Below are positions 26,542 to 63,811 of a stretch of DNA of 64,000 bases, in pieces. This DNA comes from Macrotrachela quadricornifera (lineage: Eukaryota > Rotifera > Eurotatoria > Philodinida > Philodinidae): positions 45,559-109,558 of the forward strand of contig JAJEKB010020254.1 in NCBI GenBank assembly GCA_022393335.1. The letters are read 5' to 3'. How positions within the stretch are numbered: position 1 is the stretch's first letter; every line of letters begins with the position of its first letter. The notes beneath the pieces are model-generated. The model made no database searches. It was given only the letters and a program-made list of their open reading frames with translations, and was not told the DNA's origin. Made by a program: the position numbers and the translations under genes.

Positions 26542-27204
26542 GAAGAAGAAAACGTTGAGTCGAGCAGTATACAAAAAGAAAATGAAACATGTGAGTAAGA
26601 AAGAGAAAAAGAAATAATATAACGCGTGACAGGGTTAAACAGTGTAGATACATCGATCGTTAATGACGCTACCATATATTTTGAGTTTTTTTTTCTTCTG
26701 TTCTCTTCTATCATTGCACGCACGTCTCTGCATACTGTGTCTATGCTGTTCTGTCTTTTTCTTTCTTCTCTCATCAACCATATAGTTATACACGAATGTA
26801 TGAAATGACATCTAACCACATCGTCATTTATTGGTTTAAATAAACTTGCGAATCATAGTTTGTGTCGTTCTTCCATACTTGAATTTATTTATGAATGAGT
26901 AGTATACGGACAGAAGGCGAAAAAAAATTATATACATATAAAATAACAACACACTAATGCACTAGGTGTCGCCTTATTTCTTGCCACTTTTTTCAGCGTT
27001 CTCCTTAATACTGAATATTGATAAACTAGAGATACACTTCACTATGAAGTTAGATTTTTCGGCCTCATTCTAGTTTCCGAGAAAACTGGTATTTATGACG
27101 ACCAATAATAAGCTATGGATATTTTTAACCAATGAGAGATGCGCGTACTAACACGAACAGCTGTGTATGTACAGTCTATTCATCGTAGTCATTCATAGGT
27201 AATA
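26542..27204. other. Divergent intergenic region
   Basis: This separates the minus-strand Mpv17-family gene from the plus-strand PIN-like/CXC gene, so it probably holds both promoters. Two CCAAT strings lie upstream of the right gene (separate entry). No exon. Confidence 0.5.
27102..27133 (+). promoter_or_regulatory. Paired CCAAT-box candidates
   Basis: CCAAT occurs at 27102-27106 and 27129-27133, 70-100 bp upstream of the proposed ATG at 27205. Spacing and orientation fit a core promoter, but experimental support is absent. Confidence 0.3.
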
Positions 27205-30200
27205 ATGCCGTCAGAAGTGGTTCATTGTGCTATATGTGATCGACGAGAGCGAGGTGCACGTTCAAAATTTACAACAATTGGAACTTTTGAACGTCAAGAA
27301 AAAGTTTATCAAGGCTTTATACAACGTCATGGTCGCTCATTACACTGCTCATTAATCAACAAAAAGGTTCATGTATCCTGTTATAAAAATATATCATATA
27401 ATTTAGAAGCTGTATCCAATATGAACACAACTGGTCGACCTAGACTATACAAACGTCCTTCTCGCAAAGTTATAACTTCAACAACTGCATCTCGAAATGA
27501 CACAAATTTATCTATCGATTCTGAACAATCAAACATTTGTAAAACTGATCCAAATTCTATTATTATCAATTCCAATTTAGACCTTCATATTATTAATAAT
27601 TCCTCGCCATTATCAGAAAAAGAGGTAAGATAAATTAAAGTACTTGTTTTTAATTCGATTTGTTGCATCATGTACTTTTAGAATGATGACCTTCTAGTCA
27701 AATCGGAAGTGGTGAATGAAAATGAAAAAAAATCTCCAAATATTTCCAATTATATATGTTGTCAACAACCATTAATAAACTGTTCATATCGAGATATTTC
27801 CTCTTTTCAAATATCCGAATATAATACGCCATTTACTTTAACATCAGCACCAACGTCTTATATTTCTTGCATCTCGAACATTGTATGTAAACAGTCTTTA
27901 ATACAATTAGATGATGATCAAATCTCTCCAGCATTACCAATTGATTTGAATGGAAAACAGTTAACCAAAGTATGCTCAAGAAACGATGTAGTAAGTTTTG
28001 AAAATTATGATTTCTCATAAACTGTTGTTTTTTTTATAGTATCAACAATCAAACACCCATTCTGATTGTGTATCTCTCGACGATAGTCATAATGAAGGTA
28101 TTACAACGATCAGCAGTATACCAGAAGAATTAGAACCAAATGATTTAAATAGTAATTCTTCAAACAACGAAGATAAACAATGCTATTCAACAGTAAGTAT
28201 GAATCTTCATCAATTGATTTCAGTATCTTAAATCAAGAAAATTTCTTTTAGTTTACTAGTTGTAGATCAATTATAACAAACGAATTCAGAAATTCATCGT
28301 CGATATCATCAGAAACTAATTTAATATATGATGATGCCAATGGCCTTTATCGAGATCAACGTGTAACACAATCTAGTAGACGAAATATATGCAAATCAGT
28401 AATATTGAAAGTAATATAATTCTTTTTGTATTAGTGTACTGTTCTTTTTCGCTAGACTTGCCGTACCAAAAGAAAACACGTGTCTAGTCCTCGTCGATCA
28501 AGTCGAATTCAGTCAAGAATTGTTAGCAGTTCATCCTGTCCAAAAGCTGTTGATACTTCTGCTTGTTATCCTACTGCCTTTGATGAATTATGTATTTGGC
28601 TAATGAAGAAGTTATATTATAAAGTTTATAATGTGTCGATGCTCAATATAAGTATTAAATACAAAATTATCGCTCGACGTCGTAGAGAAAAACCAAAGAA
28701 ATATTTATTTAAAACATCATTCATTCAATACCGTCTTAAGTGGAGATATGGTAATATACTGCATTTTGAAAAGAAGAGCAATGATAAAGTGAGTAAACTA
28801 AATAACACGTACTACACTCACTAAACAAAGACTCCTAGACGAATAAACACAATGTTCTTTATTACGTAATTTTTTTCTATATATTTTAGGATGTATTCGT
28901 TAGTCTGTCGAATTCCTCAACTTATATACGAAATGTTACATCAAAACCAAAAATTTCGGAACGATTAAAAATGCCTGATTCAAATAAAAACCAACGTACG
29001 TGTGAGCAGTTTATAGATCTGATTGAACAACTTCGAGATTCAATTAAAAACAATACTAATTTTTGTCGGTCGATGAAATATGATACATCATTATTAATCA
29101 ACTTCGATTCAAGTTTATACTGGTCATGTGTGCCATTATTGCTCAGAAATTTTATTGGTCTTTTGACATTAAACGATAAAAAATTTTCAAATATGAAGAA
29201 AAACTTTGAATTTTATGATATTAAAACGAAAGACTTATTCAAAACATCTCCTAAATGGTTAAAGATAGCAACCATATGTTACGATTTAATCTATGCAAGT
29301 AATAGTCAGAACATAACACCGAAACATTGTAAGTGTATTTTTGTGTTGAATAAAACTCACATTTCGTTCCATTTAGATCTACTTGGAAATGAATTTTATC
29401 GACATGAACGATCTGAACAATTGTTAACTATTACCAATAGACTTGGCCATACTCCAGCCTATAAAACTATTGTTCGACTACAAACAGAAGCAGCAAGAAG
29501 ATCCCAAACAACATCCGATCCATTCATTTATGCTCGTCCATATCAATCGCCACGTAGTCACAACTTTATTATTAAAGTCGCTGATAATTTTGATTTAAAT
29601 CCAGATCGCCTACATGGTGAAAGAAGTATTCATCTCCTGAATCAAATTATTGTATCAACACCAGAAAATGATGAGCTTCCAGTGGTGATTTCTGAGTGTT
29701 TGAATGAATTATTGGATATGACAGTGGAATCAGACACTTCTATTAATGTGAGTACACATATTTCTTTTGTAATATTATTACAAAAATAGAAGCTGATTTT
29801 TTAGACTTCTCAAGAAATTATGAAAACATCAACAAATATTTCTTCTATAAATTTTTCGACTGAAATGTTTATCAATCATTCTTTACAATTACCTCTTCTA
29901 GCGTATGGACTCGTAAAATATGCTAATGATACCACTCGTCCTTCATTAAATTTTTTATCTTCATTAATTCCAGTTTTAATTCCAATCATGTCTGGATTTT
30001 TTGCTACTTATTTAAATACAGAACAACGACCATTGCACCATATTTCATTTATGACTCCAATCCATGAAGATCCAAGTTCACAAGCAGCAGCAAAAAAATG
30101 TCTTGAAGAAACTAAACATCTTTTTGTTGATTCAAAATATCAAAAGCAAGGTGTTTTGGTCGTTGATGAAAAAATCTATCGATCCTGTATGAAGGTAAAC

Positions 30201-33200
30201 ACCGATATGTAACTATGTAATAACTTATGATTTCTTATATTCTCTTTGTTTGAATAGTTGAAACATAATGAACCTGATACGTTCCAAAATATTTTCGTGT
30301 ATGCCGGCGATTTTCATTTAATGAAGAACATGATGGTAGTCATTTGGGGTGTGCTACAAGGTTCAGGTATTGAAGATGTACTTGAAAATATATACAAAAG
30401 TGCCACATTACGTTCTATTGTCGAGTAAGCTTTTTTATGCATTACGAATAACTATTGTTTGAGATAGATTTAATATATTTTGTTTTATTTAGAGTCCACC
30501 ATTTTAATAAAAGTTTAAGGTGTTTGAAATTATTATATACAGCTCTTCATATACTTTGGTTAGAAGCCTTTTTTGATGAAACTATGATCAAAAAAGAAAC
30601 AATTAATTGTGTTAATCATCTAAAATCAACGATGAACAAATTACCATCAGAATTTGCATCGGAAAACGTTGCTGAAATATGGTTTTTGCAACTACTTGAA
30701 CATATTGAACGAAGTAATCTGTCTAATCATCTTCACGAATGGACCAGTAACTCGATCGAAACTAACTCCACTTTTCGTCTATGGTATTTTGTGCTGGATA
30801 AACTTCTTCAACCACTTTTTCGGTTATATATGTCTATACGTACATGCAATTTTGCCGCCAGAAATGCTGCATTATTTCAATTTGCACCCTTATTCTTTTC
30901 AACTAACCATCGTAACTATAGTCGACTCGCTGCTCAACATCTATTTGATTTACAGAATTCCTCATCTTATTTACTTGAACGACTGGCATCTTCTTTCGCA
31001 GTTACCCGTTCCAAGCGGCGATTTTCTAGTAAGTTCATTCTTGCTTTTCTAATTATATGTGCACGGTAATTTCAGGCATCGCTCTGGATCAAACAATCGA
31101 GTGTACTATAAATAAATATGGAAAGGGTTATGGTGGAATAAATGGTCGACTTAACGAACAATCAATTGAAAACTGGACACATTCTTTTACTTTTCGAGCA
31201 CTTTTAACCACAACTTTTCAAGAAATATGTGGCATAGAGACACAAAACAATTCCGTCGATTCTCATATCGAATGTTCTCCAAATCGAAAAGCCATCGATG
31301 ATAGTGACTTATCAATTATTGTCAACAAGCTTCGTAATGAAAATCTATTTACTAAAACAAATTTACAATGCCGTAAGATCCTCTCCGGTCTTATTATTCA
31401 TGATGATATTATTTTAAACATTACATCGTTACATGATCGTGGTACACAAGCTATGTTAACATATATCTACGAACGGCTGATCCATAAAACGACTCCAATT
31501 GATAGTCCACTCAAAGCAATGCCTTCTTTGAGTAAGTCGTTTGTATAATCTAGAGATAATAAAGCACAACGAAATCTTATTCTTTTCCTAGAACTTAAAC
31601 ATGCAGATACATATTCATCTAGCAGTTTTAGTGGAACAAACAAGAGTCGTTTTCTTTCTCAAAAAATCAAAAACTACAACGAACTTGTTAAATTAGCAGA
31701 TACAGAAATACGTCGAACAATTATCATAGCTCAACAACGAAACTTGAAGCCATTATCCCAGTTTTTTGCTTTTGAATTCTCGCCAGTACCATTATCTCTA
31801 TGTGATAATCAGCATATTGATTTACTTAATCAACAGACAAAAGCAAAAGCAATTGAGTTCTTGAATAAGATTTTTCCATCATCGTTTTCATCCTCATGTT
31901 CAATTTATACTGATCAAACTGCAATTGTTATCGATGGTGGTAGTCTTTTGGAAGCAAAACCCCATCCACAAACGAAAACAATAAGAGATTATGCGATCCA
32001 GCTATTAGAGAAAAGTATTCGTCAATACTTCGATATGCATGTAAGTGAATTATCTTCAATTACTTGTCTTTCTTGATTTTTGTTTAGGATAGAGTGGATA
32101 TTGTGTTCGAAAGTACTAACAACAACATGATGAAAAAGTTTATTCGAAGACATAATCTTGATGCTCAGAAACGTACATACCAATTGAAAGGCAATGATTT
32201 AATAGAATCACCATTTAAAAAATTTGTTCATTACAACCGAGTAGCTCTTTGTGAATGTATTCGACAATGTTGGATGGAAGTAAATTTAATTGAACGTATA
32301 CCACCAGGTCGTGTTTTAGTAATTGGTGGTCCTGACACAACCGCTGTGAAATTGATGAATGGAAAGAAACCTGAATTAGATTATCTGCTAGAATCGAACC
32401 ATATTGGAGCTGATACTCGAATATTACTGCATGTTAATGTCATCAGTCTTGATCAATGTCATAAAACAGTTTTTATCAAAACTACTGAGTAAGTTAAATA
32501 AAATATATTTCTTTCAATCTACATATGAACAATAATATCATATGTCTTTTCATGTTTATGTTTTAGCACTGATGTTATTCTACTTGCTATCGCATTTGGA
32601 ACTAGTATTATTCTTGACCATCTTATCATAAGGTCAACCAATACAAGAACAAAAAGAGATACTTTCATCAATATCAAATCTATTGCTACTGATCTTCGAA
32701 ATTTATCTATCGATCCTACATCTCTTCTCGTTCTTCACGCTCTTTCTGGATGTGATAGCACCTCATTTATTAGAGGTGTCACCAAAGAAAAGATATTCCA
32801 ACAATATTTTGCCGATCCAATTCGATACTTATTCATTAATAAATTAACTTCTACTTCACCACCTGATGATGCGATTGCTGCTTCTGAACAATTACTTATT
32901 CAATGTTATTCTTTTGGGCGTGTGGCTCATTCACTTGACGAACTTCGTAGTATGAGTAAGTTTAGTTATTAAATAAATTACTTCATTAATTTTTATGAGA
33001 ATTCTTTTGATTTTATAAACATTACTGTAGTGGCTGGTGCACGTACAAAGGATCGAGCTCGTACTACTATTGCTGCAACTTTACCACCGTCAACAGCTGC
33101 ATTCAATCAACATTGTTTAAGAGCCGGCCGACAAATAAAGATTTGGATTGATTGCTTAGATTCAAATCCAATTGTTCCACCTATGATTAATTCAGGTTAT

Positions 33201-34317
33201 GAGAGTACTGATTTTGTTGGTGAGTTCAAAATAAAATGGACTGATCTTCCTGATAGGCCTATAGATTCCCGTCTTGATTCCTGTGGTGATTGTAAAACAA
33301 ATTGTGCTCGCTGTAAGTGTTGGAAAAACAATGTTCCTTGTACTTTTTATTGCAAATGTAATGTAAGTTCATGCACCAATCAATCAAATATTCAAGTTTG
33401 TGTAAAAACTTTTACTTCCATTACAATTGTCTATATACTAATATTTAGAATATTGTCCCGTTCCCTCAAAATGACTCATCTATAAGTATTAATGGTAATG
33501 ACGCGTACTCTACAGATGGTTCTATGCTTGGAGATACAGATTCTGAGCAAGCTTCCATAGTGTCAGAATCTGATAATATTTACGATCTGGTAAGTATCAG
33601 CTCAATTAACAATAAAATTTTTCTTGCATTCTTTCTTCTTCTTTCTTATTATAGACCGACGATTCTGATTTTGATATCCAGAAATCTGATCCAAGTGTTA
33701 ATATGTCTTCTTTCAACGACGGTTTCATAGATTCTGCAGCCACCAAATCAGAACATGATGTGTCTTCTCATATACTTCACGATCATAATTATCACTTAGG
33801 ACTTATTCGAAAATTTCATTCGTCTTCGCAACAATGGATATTAGTGAAGACATTTATAAAATATTTTTGTTTCTGTTTTAGTGATTTTGATAGAAATTAT
33901 TCAGATTTTTTGTCTAATTGTGGGACATCCTTTAAATATGTCTTTATTAGCTATTCTGATGATGATGCTACACTTGATTTATGTAGCACCCCAAAACGAC
34001 AACGAACATCATCTACAACTCCAGTAATGTTTTAAAACTCTTGCTTATTAAACATCGTTTTCATCTATCTTTTAGAACACTTTTGACAACTCACTGCAAT
34101 GTTCTACTCCGTATCTACACTCAAATCTTAAGAACCAATCGACAACAACTGAAGCTTCACCCATTTTTGTAAGTGTAGCCGTTTAATTGTGTAATTTATT
34201 ATTTTCTCTCTATTTCTGTTGTAGAAAACACCTCTTTTACCATTGAAATCAAAGAAACGACCAAGAGCGATCTTCAGAAAAAATTATGGAAAAAAAAATG
34301 TACAACACACGCAATAA
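27205..34317 (+). CDS. PIN/FEN-like and CXC-domain protein of an uncharacterised multicopy family, 19 exons
   Basis: Predicted exons: 27205-27624, 27682-27990, 28040-28192, 28252-28410, 28456-28788, 28890-29328, 29377-29747, 29805-30194, 30258-30424, 30493-31028, 31076-31531, 31592-32040, 32088-32488, 32567-32955, 33031-33395, 33449-33589, 33655-34023, 34076-34168 and 34225-34317. Every junction keeps frame, giving about 2010 residues with no internal stop. Residues 1-65 hold a C-x2-C ... VHVSCY cluster, probably zinc binding. A Ser/Asn-rich low-complexity part follows to about 400. The conserved central region includes TNRLGHTPAYKTIV (about 625) and YAGDFHLMKNMMVVIWG (about 878). A nuclease-like region runs VIDGG (about 1357), GADTRILLH (about 1501), TDTDVILLA (about 1528) and LHALSGCDSTS (about 1588). 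A CXC cluster (CGDCKTNCARCKC) lies near 1741, followed by an acidic/Ser tail and a basic end. I know this arrangement from multicopy uncharacterised proteins of corals, sponges and molluscs. PIN/FEN nuclease kinship is my inference from the Asp pattern. The usual Glu before ADTR is Gly here. Ambiguities: exon 4 could end at 28398; exon 15 could end at 33362, which would remove the last CXC cysteine. Confidence 0.85.
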
Positions 34318-34535
34318 TTTATTTTTTATAATTATTATTATTTATTTATTATTTTTTTTGTATAAATTAAAAATATATTTATAAGAAATAAATATTATTA
34401 TTATTATTTATTTGTTGTTTTTTTTGTATCAATTAAGAATATATTTAAAAGAAATAAATATTATTATTATTATTTATCTATTGCTTTTCTTGTATCAATT
34501 AAGAATATATTTAAAAGAAATAAATATAATGAGTA
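34317..34535 (+). repeat. About three tandem units of 66-67 bp
   Basis: Units contain (ATT)n, TTTTTTTGTATCAATTAAGA, and ATATTTAAAAGAAATAAAT. The second and third units are nearly identical; the first is more diverged. They directly follow the stop codon of the PIN-like/CXC gene, and each supplies an AATAAA, so they may act as the poly(A) region. Confidence 0.8.
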
Positions 34536-36600
34536 AAATAATCATAAAGTTGAAAAATAACTTAAATTTGATAGATCAAATGCCAAGAAAATAATTTTTC
34601 ATTACATATAAGCCGCCATTTTGCATTGTCATCCAGTGACGACTCCTCCACATTGATGTTTTATAATTGGATTGGTCGCAGTATCTTGCTAATTTCTCTG
34701 CATAGACAATTTTCTGAAAGACACCAAAAACGTCGTCCGATAGAAAAAAATTTTCTCTATCGATTAGTGTCAATTAAAAGTTTGGCCTCTTAAATTTTTT
34801 TTAGTGCATTGTCTTTTTATTCGCTTATTTCACTATGCTTCTTTCCCTCAGTCTGGGCACTAGAGTAATGGATTATTAGGATTAAAATTCCGAAAGTTGT
34901 AAAAACGTCATTTATACTATTTCCATCTGTCAGTTTAATTGATGCGAAAAAATATATTAATACACAAATATTCTCCAATGGATTTTTATTAATTCATCGT
35001 GCTTGAATAATTATCTCGTCGGTAATCGTCACACTATATGAATATTAATATTTGATGTATTATTCAAATTACATTTTTATAACATTACGTTAGTTACAGT
35101 GGATCTTGAGTCTTAACATGATAATTAATAATTGAAACATCAACGAAAATGCTTCATTTTATAAAAAATGAATGTCTGCAAAACAAAACGGTGAATAAAA
35201 TCTGAACATAATTAAATTTCTAGATTTTTAATACTTTTCAATGGAAGAAATATCAAATTAATTGAATAATTAGCAAATGAATCCACTAAAATATATTCTA
35301 GATGATGAAATCGATTAGAAGGACAATAGGATTTATCTCACGAATATTTTAGAAATTTAGTGGTGTTTGTTGATAATTCAAAAATCACGTACATAGTTTT
35401 CTGATTATTTCCGATATACGTCAATAACTAATTTCATTGGGACCTGTATTATCTACCACACAAAAAAACTCGATCAATGGAACTTCTATGTTCTTATATA
35501 ATCCGACAAGTTCCGATACCAATGATTGAATAGTTTTATTAAGAAATCTAATCTCAATCCGAGCATTTCTTGATATCAGATTACCCTGAATCATATTGGA
35601 ATCCAACAAAAAGTTACTGACCAAATTTGACACGCCTATAAAGCTCTAACCTCGATGAGCTTTACTTCATAATTGTATGCTTAGATTAATATATATTGCG
35701 TAATCTTTCTTTCTCATAAAACTTTCAACTTATTCATCTTTTCAATTAGCTTCAACGATAACTATTATATGAAAAGCTGAATCTGACTTTTAAAATTCTA
35801 TAATTTTTGATATCACATATTATCTTTAGATTATTTCTTTGTAATTAAACTATTTGTAATCGTCACGTACAACAAATTCTATTTCTTCTCATGTAGCTGT
35901 ATACATAAAAGAACAGTTTTCATAGTATTGTTTATTAGTAAAATGAAGTTAAAAATATGTGAGTTCAATATTTCAGATCTATAGGACTGCACTAACAAAC
36001 TTTCTTTTTTCTTTTTTTCTTCAGGATCAAAAGAAAAAAGTTACATCTAGTTTTTCCTAATCATTTTTTATTTTTTTAGTTCATTTACAAAAAGTGTCAG
36101 TGATTGATTAATATAATTTATCATCATTCGATGTTGTTTCGAAATTCAATTGTCTTCGAACACTTATTTCTAATAATATTGAACTAACGTACACAAACTC
36201 TGTACAATAATTCTTCTGCTTTTTATAGGAGTTTTGCAAATCGAGTCTAGACTCAGAGGTTGAGATCTACTTGTAAAATTCTTAACAAAAAAATCTCGGT
36301 ACATGCCTAGCCAGGATTTATTCGTTCGTTATTATTAGTCCTCTAAATGTCTAAAATCAAGCTAATCTTTTCTATCAAATATTTTGTTCACTAGAACAGG
36401 TTTTTTTTATTCAGTTCTTCTAAAAGTCTTAGTTTGAGCTTAGGTACACGTCGTATTGACGGATGACCTATTATAAATAGGGTATTTACTGGTAAATGAA
36501 ATTTGTTGCAGAATGCATTAAATCATTCGAAGAAAATGATCTTTAAGTATCAACACAAGAGCAGAAAAATCTGCTTTAATTTTATTTGTTTAAATTAAAA
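34536..36600. other. Intergenic; nothing firm
   Basis: AT-rich. On the minus strand AAAATGGCGGC near 34610 matches the general YY1-type consensus, and CCAAT occurs about 60 bp upstream of it (near 34670), but no gene follows. A 70-codon minus frame at 35421-35633 has no recognisable domain. Confidence 0.45.
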
Positions 36601-36604
36601 TGAA

Positions 36605-38062
36605 TTACAATTTTTTTCGTATTTCTTCAACTAGATTTTGATATTCTATAATGTGTGAATGATTATCAGCTAATTTTTCTTGAATAGAGTTATAAACTTT
36701 AGCTATATTATTATGTGCCATTGCGATATCGGGATGATTTTCAGAAAATATTTCATTGAAGATATCAAGTGCCAACTTATGGTATGAAATTGCTTTTGGA
36801 AAATCTTCCATCTTGGCATACACGATACCAATATTATCATAGCTCATGGCTATATGTGGATGATTTGAAGAAGATATTCTTTCCTCAATGCGAGTGACTT
36901 CTCATAGTATTGTAATGCATCATCATATTCTGCTTTGCTGACTTTAACCGATCCAAGTTGATTATAAAGAAATGAAGGTTCCTTGTGGTTATCAATTGTT
37001 GTTACGCTAAGTAGCATTCGATAAACTTCTTCAGCTTTATGAAAATTTGCGGTTTTAATTAGCAATTTACCAAGTCGATGTCAACCTGTACATCCAGTCA
37101 CTTCCTCTCGCATACGTTCGGTAAGAATACTAAGTTGTGGATCGGTGTCTGTCGTCAATGTCAGTTCTACCTGCCATAGACCATTTTCTAGTTGTTTAAA
37201 TGCACCAATTCGAAAAACTGAATACATGGAGAATAGAACCTCTTCTTCATTTTCCTGATAATAACTTACATTATCAATTTGGGCAAAAGGTATCGATGGA
37301 GTCGATGGATTAACTATAATTTGGAAAAGAACTCCAGTTAATTCAGGTCTATTGATCTTTGTAGTAGTGACAAATTTTAATGAAATTTCTTTATTTCTGC
37401 TTGTACATTGTCCTCGATATAGAATAAAGGAATTTTGTTGTTCTTGAAATTGTTTCAAATGAAGTTCTTCAATATGTTTATGGATATCGCGAATGAAAAA
37501 TCCCATTTTGACGATAACATTCGTTTCTAATGTGCATAGAGCACGATTAAGTATTTGATACGTAAAACCTTCAAGAGTATACCACCAAATAGGAGTATGT
37601 TCAATATATTCTCGTTCAAATTGCTCGATAATTTTCAATTGTGAATCATCGCCTTTGTACTTTTCTCGACAGTAATTAGTCAAATCTTTGATTGATTGGT
37701 CATTATAATCGAATTCTAGTAAAATTTCTTTGAGTAATGTGGAATACATAAGTGATGCTAAATCTTGATATATTGATGTATCACTCATCGATACAAAATT
37801 CGTTGAAATAAAATCTTCTTGATTATATTGATTCGTGTATTGTTTGAGCAAATCGTAAATCTATTGTATATCTGTGTAAATACCGATAACTTTCGACCAT
37901 TCTTTGGCCCATGAATCGTGATCCAGAATAATCAGACAAAAGATATAGATGCATTGGACACATGACATATTTAGAACTTGATTCATGTAGCACGACTTTT
38001 AAAAGAACCGAGCATTTTAAATGATGATTTAACTCAACACGATTTTCTTCCAACGACTAGAT
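36605..38062 (-). pseudogene. Broken ADP-ribosyltransferase-TPR gene
   Basis: On the minus strand an acceptor at 38063 (TTTCATCTAG) opens a frame with SLEENRVELNHHL and GQRMVESYRYLHRYTIDL. A frameshift near 37845 moves it to QEDFISTNFVSMSDTS and the ART core. The core has the catalytic Arg (FILYRGQ) and NEEEVLFSM (ExE region), but the segment that should hold the Ser-Thr-Ser motif between them is deleted: RGQ runs almost directly into NKEISLKF. At 37081-37083 a TGA interrupts TGCTG-HRLGKLLIK, where relatives have Trp, so TGG to TGA is likely. TPRs follow, with another frameshift near 36885, and end YQNLVEEIRKKL. Compare the intact relative at 54327-56640. Four lesions make function very unlikely. 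Confidence 0.88.
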
Positions 38063-54326: not shown

Positions 54327-56640
54327 TCACAAGAAACATCGGAACCATCTAGTCGGACCATGGTCCTGGTGCTGTACATCTCTACCTGCAAAAGTCGTAA
54401 CCGAGACAAAGAAAAAGTTTCGTGATAGTCTTACCTTTATTAACAGAGGCAAATTTCTCGGCATAGAGTGGCCACCAGTGCCATGGCGGGTCGAAACTTT
54501 GTTCCAGAAGTTTAAGAAGTTGATGTTTATTAGTTGGATCAAAGTGTATTTTCCGAATTATTAATGCTTGAGAGAAGTATTCTAATGCTTCATTGATTCT
54601 TTCTTGCTGAAGAAAGACTTGTGCAATATTGATTAAACTTTGAGCAATATCATTGTGCTCGGATGGAAGTAATCTTCTTCTCATGTCCAATGATGATTGA
54701 TGATTGTAAAGAGCTTCAGGTAATTTATGCATCTGCCAATGGACGAGACCCATATTATTCAAACTTGCTGCTATATCAAGATGAACACGTGATAATTGAC
54801 TTTCACGAATTCTCAACGATTTTGTATAATACTGTAATGATTCATAAGGTTCTTTCATTTTATAATAAACATTACCAATATTATTCAGTGTTGTAGCTAT
54901 TTCTAAATGATCACTGGCATAAAATTTTTTTCTAATTTCTAACGCTTGAAAGTAGAAATTTAATGCTTTGGGATACTCTTCTTTACGAAGAGAAATATTA
55001 GCCAAGCTGATCAATGGTCTTGCTGAATCTTTAACACGAGGTGGTTCAGCTCGAATCATCATTTCATATGCACGTTCAAAATTTTTCTGTGCTTCATCGA
55101 GTTCACCTTTACACAAATATGCAGATCCGATTTCATTATAAATTCGTGCAGTATCGTGTTCTTCATTTGGATTCTTTAATAAATTATTGAAATATTTTAA
55201 TGATTCATCATATTTACCCATTTCTATAAGTAATTTACCAAACATAATTACTTCACTCGTTTCTTCATTAGTTTTTCTGTTTGACTCAATATATTCTTTG
55301 GCTAATTTTAATCCTTCATCAGTTGCTTGCAATTTTACCACATACAAATCTAATTCTGCATCTTTGTTAACAAGTAAAATTTTAAATGTACTGCCAAGAT
55401 CAAACAAAACTTCTTGTTCCATAGCAAATTGACTGTCATTTGTAATATCAGCAAAAATAACTGATTTCGTTTCATGTACATTACATTCTATTTCATAAAG
55501 AATAGAAATTATATTTGTTCGTTTTGTGGATTGCATAGCAAATTTAATCGCAACATTTTTCGAAAGACTTGTAGAGAGAAATCCATTTGTTGATATTAAA
55601 TTACCTTGATTTTGTTTCAAACGCTCTAATTCTTCTAGTTCTAATTTTAAACCACGATAGAGCATTACAATATTTTTTTTATTTCGATTTTCTTTATTAT
55701 ATCTCGTAGCTAAATTTAATGATAAATCAGCAATGAAAAATCGAAATATATGTAGTTGTTCGATATCTTCAGTACGTAAGGCTTTGTTAACAAGTTTGTA
55801 CAAAAATGTTTCTCTCGTATACCAATAAATACTTTTATCTGATTGATAAGAATGATCAAATTCATTAATATGACCTTGTTCTTTCTCATTTCCACGATAA
55901 TAATGACGACAAAACTGAATTAATTGTTGTTTAGCGTTATCATCTCGTGGCATACGTAGAATAACATCTTTAAATAATTGAAACCATAAAAACTCTGCCG
56001 ATTCTTTCGATAAATCACGTGTCGATTTTTCTTGATGTTTATCATAGAAACTAAATGTATCTAATTGTCTTTGTAATAATTTTGCATTTTCTCTGATCGA
56101 ATCTTTCAAATCTGAACGTTCACAATATATACCAACTATGGATTTGTATTCTTGTAATAAATTTTGATATTTTTCGACTTTTAAACAGAAAACAAAGATT
56201 GAATCAACTTGTTTCAACTTATTAATTGCTGGCAGAATGGTAGATGCAGATTTTCCAGATATAATGAGAAATATTTTTTCGTTGGTAATCGATTTTATAT
56301 AATTAATACATTCCTGTTGATCTGAATAAAACATGACATAATTATTAATTTCACGTAATTCTCTTGCTGTCTGTTGTGTATCTTCAGTTTTACCAAAACG
56401 TGGATCACACCAAATCAACGTGATGCCTTCAAAATTTTGTGTTTGTGGTGCTTCTGGATATGATATGTTTAATGTGGTCGGAGTAGCATTGGATGGAAGT
56501 GATGTAGCAACTAACTCAGAATGAGTAGAATCATTAATGGACGAATCAAAATCAGATTCTTGTTGCTTTTGAATAAACATTGATTTTACTGTCGCACCCA
56601 CATATGTCATCATTTCTTTGAATGATTTGTTACCATCCAT
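54327..56640 (-). CDS. R-S-E ADP-ribosyltransferase fused to TPRs (intact copy)
   Basis: The main exon runs 56640 to 54435 and is open throughout (752 residues if read straight on to a stop at 54382). A 49-nt GT-AG intron at 54386-54434 would instead join SVNKG to RDVQHQDHGPTRWF and end at 54327; I favour the spliced form. N-terminal residues about 75-200 form a nucleotide-binding-like or unknown globular region (LIWCDPRF, IFLIISGKSA). The ART domain lies at about 310-470, with the catalytic Arg in VMLYRGLKLE, the FLSTSLSKN Ser-Thr-Ser motif, and MEQEVLFD as the ExE motif. All three are intact, so mono-ADP-ribosylation activity is predicted. At least five TPR/kinesin-light-chain-like repeats follow (for example IATTLNNIGNVYYKMKEPYE and IAASLNNMGLVHWQMHKLPE). 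Such ART-TPR fusions are greatly expanded in bdelloids. Target and location are unknown; there is no signal peptide, so cytoplasmic is likely. Confidence 0.9.
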
Positions 56641-57340
56641 TTGATTATCTACAAAAGGTAGAACAACATGAATATCCGATGCTAGAACAAGGCTTCTGTT
56701 AGCCTTTAGGTGGCGTGTGTGTGTTCTATATACAATCCTTTTACTTATTTTTTAAATGTACTAGAAACATATGTATATATAGAAAGAATGAAAATAAAGA
56801 AAAAGAGAACGAATAACAAGAACATATATGATGAGACAGAAATAGAAACAATATAAAAATAGAAGAATGTGTACGAAAGCGACATCACTTTGTAACATAC
56901 TCCCATTTGTTAAAAAGGCATGTCCTATCAGACAGTTTACTATGTAGAGAAGAATGAAAGACGAAAGAAAAGGATAAGTAATGATTTTATAAACACAAGA
57001 ATAAATAAACAAGAACAAGAAATAATCGACTAGAGAAAAAGTTTATGTAGACTAATATGTAATGTCAAATAAAGTGAGAGAGAAAAAAAGAGAAAAACAT
57101 TTGGTTTTTTTTCAGTTTAGCAATAACAATATACTGGAATCAGAAAAACAAAATAGGAGCAAAAAAAGACAACATTACATATGACTAGAAATAGACTAGT
57201 TTTGTATCAGAACAAGAAATAAAGGAGAATAATATGAGTTGATTCTGATCAGCTCATTTACATCTATTATCGATGCTAATGATAAAATTTAGAAACGAAA
57301 TAAAAATTTTTTTTTTGCTGTTTTTTGTATTGCACTAACA
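56641..57340. other. Upstream region of the ART-TPR gene; no exon seen
   Basis: AT-rich 5' flank. An upstream noncoding or short coding exon is possible but not supported. Confidence 0.45.
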
Positions 57341-61000: not shown

Positions 61001-61545
61001 CGATCGGTAGAGAGCTGCGGAGTCCACTTTTTTTTATTCCGATTCCAACTCCGACTCCGAAAAATTCCGAAAAGTTTTTTTATACAGAAATCTTTTCAGA
61101 ATAATGTTTTTTTTTCAAGTAGACCATTAATTTGAATGTCTTGGTTATATTATTTTTATTTCTTGAAATTTATTTATGAAATAAAAAGTATGTTCCATGT
61201 ATTATTAACGAAACTTTATAAATAACCTTCGTTTTGAGAAAGAAACAATCAAATTTATTTGTCTTGTAATCGGACTCCGATATTAACTCTGGAAAATCCT
61301 TCTTTTTAGTTCCGACTCCGAAAACTATTCTTTCACGATTCCCATTCCAGCTCCGACTCCGAAAATTTTCAAATTGTCAATTCCGATTCCAACTCCGACT
61401 CCGTCGAAATCGGATTTCGGAGGGCAGTGCAGTACTCTACTGGTCGACCACTCACCCCTAGTTGTTTGCATATTTAACGCCATTATATCGATTGATATTA
61501 GGTCAACTTCGAAGTTAATGGATGCATCTCGTTTAAATTCTGGCA
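58085..61545 (-). repeat. Right arm of the long inverted repeat (about 3.5 kb)
   Basis: Reverse-complement partner of 46310-49198. The inner end at 58085 (complement of GCGAATCCGTAGGATGAGCA) matches 49170-49195 and the partial copy ending near 7072. It is longer than the left arm because a GACTCCG-rich element sits inside it (60995-61455). Homology resumes at 61455-61540 and stops just before the MULE terminus at 61551. Confidence 0.8.
60995..61455. mobile_element. GACTCCG-rich non-autonomous insertion with short TIRs
   Basis: Present in the right arm and absent from the corresponding left-arm site near 46385. Ends are similar in inverted orientation: CGGTAGAGAGCTGCGGAGTC near 61005 and GCAGTGCAGTACTCTACTGG near 61427. 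The interior has many (A)ACTCCG(A) hexamers (TTCCAACTCCGACTCCGAAA at both sides). No open frame. Confidence 0.6.
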
Positions 61546-61550
61546 CTATA

Positions 61551-63811
61551 TCAATTCGTCGCCGCTCAATTCGTCGCATTCAATTCGTCGCAATCAATTC
61601 GTCGCATAACAATTCGTCGCATATTCAATTAGTCGCATATACAATTCGTCGCGTATTCAATTAGTCGCATAAGACGTCGTCGTGTGCTTCTCTCTCTCTC
61701 TCTGTGATAATTGCTTTTTCGACCTTCAATTTTTAAAAAAGAATAATTAATAAATAAAGATACTAAAGAGATTTAAAATATTGATATTCTCAAATGGGTG
61801 ATAACCTTAGTGAATGGAACAGTATTATGTGATTGTGTCTAATTCCTAACGATATCAACAGGCTAAATCAATCAGATTTTAATTGGATTTTGTGTTCTGA
61901 TAATGAACTAGACATAAGTTTATTAACAGAGATAATTATATTGTAGTTCTGAATTATGAGACTCAAAAATATAAATAAACGTTATTCTTTGAGCAAGAGC
62001 ACTTTCGATCAATACTGTCATAAAGCTATTTTCAACTATAATCTACTAATGTCTCTTATTGAAAAACTATTATCTGAAAAAGGAAAACCAATGGTCGTAC
62101 ATGCAGGTTATATTTACACTCAAGAACGAACTACAATAACAAAACTAATTTTTCGATGTCAAAATCGAAATTGTAAAGGTAATTAACAAAGCGCTGCTTT
62201 GATCTCATCAAAAGAAATATTTTTTTTAATTAAGCTCGATGTCACACAAACTTATCAATGGATACTTTTCTTTCTCAACCAACAACACATAATCATGCAC
62301 CCAATCCAGATCGTATTCCAGTTATTAAACTTCATAATGATGTTAAGCAACGTGCTGCAACTACTGATGAACCAACAAGCTCGATTCTCCATTCTGCTTT
62401 AAGAACATTTCCGCTGTCTGCCGCTGGCCAATTACCACGGAGTGACGTTATCACACAAACAATTCGTCGACAGCGTACAACACCAGCAACTACTCCAAAT
62501 GGTCATTTACCAGAAAATTTAAGAAAAACTTATCGTGATGAAGATTTTTTATTATATGAAGATAATGAAATGATAATTTTTTTTACAAGAACTAATTTAT
62601 CACTCTTAAAACAATCAAAACATTGGTTTGCTGATGGAACGTTTAAAGTAAGTTACCGATTAAGAAATTTACATCACTAATTAACGTTCTTTTAGGTTTG
62701 CCCTGATGACTTCTATCAGTTATTTACATTACACGCTTTAATGTCATCAGTTGTTATTCCTCTTGTTTATGGTCTCTTAGTTGGTAAAAGCACTAAAGAT
62801 TACAACAGCTTCCTCAAAAAAGTTCTCGAACAAGATGACTTTGATCCAGAATCAATTCAAACTGACTTTGAAAGTGGCACAATAAAATCAATTAAAGAAT
62901 CACTTCCAAATGTCTCGCACAAAGGTACGATTTATATTAATTTCAATTTTTTATATTAATTAATGTCTCTCTTAGGTTGTCTCTTTCATTTCGGTCAAAG
63001 TGTTTGGCGGCACGTTCAAGACAACGGCTTATCGAAAAAATATCAAGAAGATAACACTTTCCGAATTAATGTTAAAAAATTAATTGCTCTTGCTTTTCTT
63101 CCTGTTAATGATATCATCAAAGGATTTGATATGGTGGCTGCCGAATTCGATGATGATGATGATACCGAAAATTTACTTAATTACTTTGAAAAAACTTGGA
63201 TAGGTGAACCAAAAAGAAGAGGTAAAATTTTAATATTTAAATTAATTCTCTAAATGTACTTTTACATAGGAGTTGGACGAAAAAAACCATTATTTGATTA
63301 CAAATTATGGAATATTTATGATCGCGTCATTGCAAATCTTCCTCGTTCCAACAACGCTGTCGAAGGATGGCACAACGCATTTGCCACTCGTGTTGCTATC
63401 TCTCATCCAACAGTGGCTAAATTAACTGAAAAAATTCGTCTAGAGCAATCAAAATTTGAAATTGATATTGCTCAAATTCTTCAAGGTCATGAACCGAAGC
63501 CAAAAAAAGCTTGTTATCGTAAGCGTGACGAGCTCATTTCACGTTTGGTTCTTGGTTATGACCAATTACAAATTGATCAATACTTAAAAAACATTTCTCC
63601 TAATATTTCATTGTAAATTAAATCAATTTTCTCACTTTTATTTCATTCTGTATGTTCACAATTTTTCAATAAAAATTCTAAACTAATTAACACTTATCTC
63701 TCTTTCTCTCATAAGAGAGAAGCATGCGATGAATTGAATATGCGACGAATTGTTATGCGACGAATTGATTGCGACGAATTGAATGCGACGAATTGAGCGG
63801 CGACGAATTGA
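61551..63811 (+). mobile_element. Complete MULE/FLYWCH-type DNA transposon
   Basis: Terminal inverted repeats of 80 bp (61551-61630 and 63732-63811) are identical. They consist of tandem CAATTCGTCGC units with 2-4-nt spacers; about eight units stand at the left and six at the right. The element is 2261 bp and contains one spliced transposase gene. I found no matching 8-10-bp target duplication in the flanks (GGCACTATA against CTGTCCACC). Identical TIRs and an open gene suggest recent activity. Confidence 0.9.
61956..63616 (+). CDS. MULE transposase with N-terminal FLYWCH zinc finger
   Basis: Five exons (61956-62178, 62235-62647, 62696-62924, 62976-63221 and 63270-63616) join in frame to 485 residues. 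The FLYWCH finger is KPMVVHAGYIYTQER, then LIFRCQNRNCKA-RCHTN, then the His pair in TTHNHAP. The MULE-type catalytic region begins at KHWFADGTFKV (first Asp). IQTDFES holds the second Asp, and HKGCLFHFGQSVWRHV is the CLFHF-type motif common to this family. NAVEGWHNAF near the end is the other family hallmark and a candidate for part of the third acidic site. The protein should bind the CAATTCGTCGC-repeat termini and catalyse excision and insertion. No stop or frameshift was seen. Confidence 0.9.

Follow-up and report, generated by a model that had tools for sequence, protein, structure and literature searches.

The DNA analyzed here, referred to as the window, is a stretch of 64,000 nucleotides that corresponds to C4071:45559-109558 of the rotifer's own genome (G000, 450 Mb). 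Its forward strand contains a gene of 19 exons (27205-34317), which encodes 2010 codons plus a terminal stop without any internal stop codon. The 18 introns are 45-101 nt long; all of them (18/18) are bounded by GT..AG, and each one restores the reading frame. The first-pass annotation had proposed 18 frame-restoring introns and an open protein of about 2010 residues; rebuilding the exon chain reproduced this result, with the quoted length obtained from the donor of intron 15 at 33396. An alternative donor of the same intron, at 33363, also keeps the frame and yields a model of 1999 aa, which lacks 11 residues of a cysteine cluster. The donor at 33396 is preferred because the cysteine cluster continues there in related proteins.

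Exon 1 (27205-27624) provides the start codon and a Cys/His N-terminal motif. It is followed by exons 2 (27682-27990), 3 (28040-28192), 4 (28252-28410), 5 (28456-28788) and 6 (28890-29328). The first putative DDE residue, D674 (29583-29585), is encoded in exon 7 (29377-29747) and the second, D849, in exon 8 (29805-30194). A GxFH motif (H878) is found in exon 9 (30258-30424), a helical insertion predicted within the putative DDE domain in exon 10 (30493-31028) and the third putative DDE residue, E1101 (31099-31101), in exon 11 (31076-31531). A domain with a predicted FEN/XRN fold begins in exon 12 (31592-32040), which includes D1359. Exon 13 (32088-32488) encodes E1402 and G1501, where other proteins have D and E respectively, as well as D1503; the nuclease-type site residues D1528, D1530 and D1591 are in exon 14 (32567-32955). 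The CXC-type cysteine cluster (~33282-33386) lies in exon 15 (33031-33395), and exons 16 (33449-33589), 17 (33655-34023), 18 (34076-34168) and 19 (34225-34317), the last with the stop codon, complete the gene. Two Rotaria relatives, P0005 and P0002, have no counterpart of some 40 in-frame codons of exon 17 (~33841-33958), which may be an insertion or may conceal a further intron, perhaps one whose donor has changed.

The splice frame, which the first-pass annotation had recommended for checking, was compared with 13 junctions in paralogues from the own genome; each junction was set to the splice pair with the best fit to the window protein. Eight of the 13 have the position and phase of a window intron (residue/phase 458/0, 604/1, 858/0, 1092/1, 1244/1, 1394/0, 1527/2 and 1657/1), and the ends of exons 5, 6, 8, 10, 11, 12, 13 and 14 are hence common to a paralogue. 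The paralogue copy behind the match at 1092 carries stops. Of the remaining junctions, four represent introns elsewhere, in distant copies, and the result for one was not clear-cut. The nearest open paralogue (C4427) can be aligned over 683 codons without a stop and is 58% identical; the differences at codon positions 1, 2 and 3 are 0.32, 0.23 and 0.50. Parts of five exons were used for the pairwise dN/dS, which is ~0.20; the dS of 1.6 is near saturation. Over a longer distance, the Rotaria protein P0005 can be aligned collinearly with the 1999-aa model from residue 1 to residue 1933 (53% identity). The substitution pattern shows signs of purifying selection on an open, spliced gene of 2010 codons.

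Two further features of the window may be mentioned. A frame on the reverse strand (54385-56751) contains ADP-ribosyltransferase (ART) and tetratricopeptide repeat domains, and there is a weak ART match at 37084-37860. Arrays of the unit TCAATTCGTCGC occur at 61545-61671 and 63715-63811; they are nearly identical, in opposite orientation and ~2 kb apart, and the pair resembles the ends of a further element, made of inverted tandem repeats.

Domains and relatives of the encoded protein

The protein is composed of a Cys/His N-terminus, a DUF6589-like centre, a FEN/XRN-like domain and a CXC cluster. This order is kept in nine long relatives that were aligned with the window protein, with an incomplete N-terminus in several of them. 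An initial homology search gave 14 proteins, every one named Rotaria or Didymodactylos. A profile search gave 18 proteins including P0028, which comes from outside this group, and P0028 as a query found 148 proteins, itself included. The 120 matches listed of these 148 include echinoderms, a hemichordate, cnidarians, the sponge Sycon, a bryozoan and a hagfish, and also a fish in a fused gene model. The first-pass annotation had described a multicopy family of corals, sponges and molluscs. The many animals among the matches listed and the several loci of the gene family in the own genome agree with this description, and cnidarians and a sponge are indeed present; the molluscs were not recovered, in that none is named among the 120 matches listed. 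Public names of family members include uncharacterized and Tesmin-like protein.

Five models (P0009, P0021, P0025, P0065 and P0125) fuse the family protein to unrelated domains or names and are probably mis-predicted fusions. They were left out of the residue counts, which cover the window protein along with 142 of 147 proteins; fused models were also dropped from the phylogenetic tree (139 of 143 rows). The tree places those 22 rows of the bdelloid set that it contains, P0016 and P0019 included, in one clade with a support of 1.0. In viral contigs none of 101 pattern stretches was confirmed as a relative. The same search of bacterial and archaeal genomes confirmed one of 135 stretches, on the planctomycete MAG contig L001 (JAJRVU010000273.1); this relative has an uninterrupted frame of 1466 aa, which is ended by the contig edge, and it is probably animal contamination. 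A sequence search of the PDB returned nothing relevant.

The cysteine cluster is located near the C-terminus as in Tesmin/TSO1-like CXC (TCR) domains. Pfam reports TCR in 10 and DUF6589 in 7 of 17 long animal relatives (E <= 0.01), and the CXC-type cluster named by the first-pass annotation was recovered in exon 15 and in the family. The window protein differs from TCR proteins in that neither its 1999-aa model nor a piece with the full cysteine cluster matches Pfam TCR at E <= 1. The window protein matches Pfam XPG_I weakly, at E 0.004 and with 17.9 bits, where the cut-off is 24.9. For the nuclease-like region, the predicted models of two relatives, P0011 and P0028, have a fold of the XRN/EXO1/FEN1 type, and the model of P0011 agrees with the PIN/FEN-type fold that had been proposed for this Asp-rich region. 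The region has in common with FEN1, EXO1, XPG and XRN this fold, as predicted in the relatives, and the order of the acidic motifs VIDGG, VFD, EAD, DTD and GCD. It differs from them by E1402 and G1501 in the window protein and by being part of a transposon protein.

The conserved central domain had been seen in the first pass, and its probable role as a transposase had been missed. This DUF6589-like centre has a conserved D/D/E set, and its predicted topology follows the RNase-H order; motif and model together suggest that it is probably a DDE transposase domain. In the fold search for the DDE part, Foldseek listed nothing at E <= 0.001 with the model of P0028. A second look was taken up by the nuclease domain, and the search thus excludes no family for the DDE part.

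The two putative active sites differ in their conservation. Where a letter is present, all proteins of the bdelloid set have the putative DDE residues D674 (13/13), D849 (9/9) and E1101 (12/12); the denominators differ because exons are skipped or missing in several of the gene models from Rotaria and Didymodactylos. The FEN/XRN-like domain has seven acidic positions, which we take as equivalent to the seven FEN1 carboxylates. The relatives outside the bdelloids have D at 1402 (118/118), E at 1501 (118/118) and D at 1503 (117/117), and the corresponding values in the bdelloid set are 20/23, 20/23 and 12/23. D at position 1591 is found in 15 of 21 proteins of the bdelloid set versus 116 of 117 other relatives. 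Twelve Rotaria-named rows have a letter at 1503, and in 11 of them the D is lost; most Rotaria-named relatives have at least one acidic residue of the nuclease site changed. The window protein retains D1359, D1503, D1528, D1530 and D1591 and has two of the seven positions changed (E1402 for D and G1501 for E); judged from the aligned residues, the predicted active site of the flap-nuclease-like domain is partly lost in this protein. The contrast between a kept DDE site and a changed nuclease site is limited to the catalytic positions, because in a control with all columns whose conservation among the other relatives reaches 97% or more, the window protein differs at 17 of 41 positions in the DDE region versus 11 of 34 in the nuclease region.

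The locus is a DNA transposon

A query with window positions 34540-35540 against the own genome matched six other places at 95-97% up to position 34862; from 34863 onward the match continues at 95% in contig C4356. At this locus (L046) C4356 runs unbroken from window position 34863 to window position 26901 and is devoid of the gene and of the gene's flanks. The C4356 flanks are 90-97% identical to the window flanks, from which we infer that C4356 is the homologous segment of the insertion locus. At the left boundary the window reads ...ATGAATGAG followed by TAGTATACGG..., and at the right boundary ...GGGCACTA followed by GAGTAATGG...; the empty site reads ...ATGACTGAGTAATGG... with a single GAG. 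The comparison base by base defines the element as 26900-34862 on the forward strand, a total of 7,963 bp with the ends 5'-TAGT...ACTA-3', flanked by the duplicated GAG at 26897-26899 on the left and 34863-34865 on the right. Copies that share either end give the same limits. The termini form weak, imperfect inverted repeats (26900-26918 and 34844-34862) with 12 of 19 positions matched, a value equalled by 0.2% of random pairs, and the 3' part of the element contains three copies of a 66-bp tandem repeat (34327-34527, forward strand). A general repeat search of the window missed the true element ends. A scan for 13-bp terminal inverted repeats with up to 2 mismatches found 9 pairs in the window (control mean 4.1, maximum 8); it also missed the true ends because they have more mismatches than the two permitted.

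Further copies are dispersed in the own genome. With the left end as the query, eight other places start exactly at base 26900. Six copies, including the one in the window, have both complete ends, and all six are flanked by a 3-bp target duplication; in the five further copies these are TTA, AGT, ATA, GTT and TAA. Four of the five are short copies of 2,280-2,296 bp, at C4741 (TTA), C395 (AGT), C3951 (ATA) and C4275 (GTT), which have the same first and last base as the window element and are mutually 96.3-99.6% identical. Of the window element, the first ~506 bp and the final ~0.7 kb are retained in these copies at 90-96%, and their middle part of ~1.2 kb has scarcely any match to it. Because they still contain gene remnants, namely residues 1-67 from exon 1 and residues 1963-2010 (1981-2010 in one copy) from the end of the gene, the short copies descend from gene-bearing elements. 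The closest pair is 99.6% identical over 2,290 bp; a distance of 0.4% implies that something has moved or copied these elements recently. The fifth copy (C4499:26819-51834) has TAA at both outer ends and is interrupted by ~22.7 kb, which is likely a nested insertion. Among the incomplete copies, L066 lacks the last 13 bp and gave no duplication, no right end was found for L065 and L067, and of L050 (C1353) the right end alone was seen. A second high-identity copy was found in the own genome neither for the DNA of exon 7 nor for residues ~1326-1779.

The fixed ends, the target site duplication, the empty site and the dispersed copies show that the gene-bearing locus is a DNA transposon. An unrecognised mobile element had been among the options of the first-pass annotation; its argument for a host gene from a lack of terminal repeats no longer holds, in view of the short imperfect inverted repeats and the empty site.

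Further family members were seen in other forms. The pairs L033/L034 and L035/L044 are 99% identical fragments of distant members, of 1,974 and 1,557 bp and with sharp ends, and the members of each pair sit at different places. An intron at residue 1657, present in L037, is absent from the two partial copies L040 and L043. An origin of these three pairs as retrocopies was considered and rejected, as neither poly(A) nor common ends were seen.

Nature of the element and alternative explanations

The gene very probably codes for the transposase-nuclease of a DNA transposon of the cut-and-paste type, likely an AcademX-like one, that is inserted in one of two matching chromosome segments. The nuclease of AcademX elements is XPG-like. 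According to PMC10045372, AcademX elements generate 3- or 4-bp duplications and AcademH elements 9 or 10, and these lengths are tied to the nuclease and the helicase that they encode. The rotifer element has an encoded nuclease and 3-bp target duplications in common with the AcademX elements described there, and it differs by its 18 introns and its changed nuclease site. By these features the element would most likely belong to the AcademX lineage of Academ. Academ is a known DDE superfamily, for which PMC10294476 describes 100 curated bivalve elements with checked terminal inverted repeats and target duplications. The word Academ is absent from the main text of a survey of bdelloid transposable elements (PMC7943196; word search). 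With a gene spread over 19 exons, an intron-rich lineage of the AcademX type would be easy to miss.

The likeness to Academ is one of features, no mention of DUF6589 was found in the literature searched, and the gene is exon-rich; all this would also fit a DNA transposon of its own superfamily outside Academ, with a DUF6589 transposase, a FEN-like nuclease and a CXC cluster. We regard such a separate superfamily as unlikely, since the nuclease and the 3-bp duplications agree with AcademX as described in PMC10045372. The rotifer element also has to be compared with other groups. The KDZ elements (Kyakuja, Dileera and Zisupton) are eukaryotic DDE-type DNA transposons with cysteine clusters, and the rotifer element, which also has a cysteine cluster, would from its putative DDE domain be of this general type as well. 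Zisupton itself is excluded on the length of its duplications, which is 8 bp according to PMC12730594 versus 3 bp in the rotifer element.

It is also conceivable that the gene is a passenger in an element that is moved by another transposase, and the four short copies, which have both ends without most of the gene, are compatible with such a situation. However, their remnants of exon 1 and of the last exons trace them to gene-bearing elements, and the protein itself has a complete putative DDE set. This makes a passenger gene very improbable.

We consider it extremely unlikely that the gene is a host gene or a domesticated transposase with a cellular role in repair or genome defence. Eighteen introns are unusual for a DNA transposon, and the eight junctions common to paralogues, the dN/dS of ~0.20, the single high-identity copy of the exons examined and the ordinary animal domains in adjacent frames all speak for a host gene. 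Purifying selection is, however, equally expected on a transposase across many transpositions, and the empty matching site, the 3-bp target duplication and the dispersed copies of both ends argue against a host gene. The first-pass annotation, which leaned to this reading, would have given it up for paralogues with transposon termini; the copies share both ends and are flanked by 3-bp duplications. A fixed host locus without mobile ends is rejected by the empty site, the GAG/GAG duplication and the copies that start at 26900.

For the AcademX-like transposon that we favour, the following mechanism can be proposed. The Cys/His N-terminus and the CXC cluster would bind the ends of the element, and the DUF6589-like centre with D674, D849 and E1101 would cut both ends and join them to the target with a 3-bp stagger. 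The FEN-like domain would process flaps or gaps that arise from excision or insertion. Because acidic residues are changed, two in the window protein and at least one in most Rotaria-named relatives, the domain probably carries out this flap step weakly, leaves it to FEN1/EXO1 of the host or has been reduced to binding DNA. The copies of 2.28-2.30 kb would be non-autonomous relatives, which such a protein could move in trans. We see about even chances that the element represents a recently mobile, intron-rich AcademX-type lineage of bdelloids, which is shedding catalytic residues of its flap nuclease, keeps its DDE residues and is passing the flap step on to host repair enzymes.

With these data a large animal family, so far named uncharacterized or Tesmin-like, gains a probable function, and one member is provided with exact ends. 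Recent movement can be tested with the near-identical short copies and the matching site that is empty. The kept DDE residues next to a changed FEN-like site open the question of what purpose the nuclease has in such transposons. An unusual transposon is added to those of the bdelloids, for which it has long been asked how asexual animals cope with mobile DNA. If the interpretation as an AcademX-type element that sheds its flap nuclease is true, DUF6589 would serve as the DDE transposase domain throughout the animal family.
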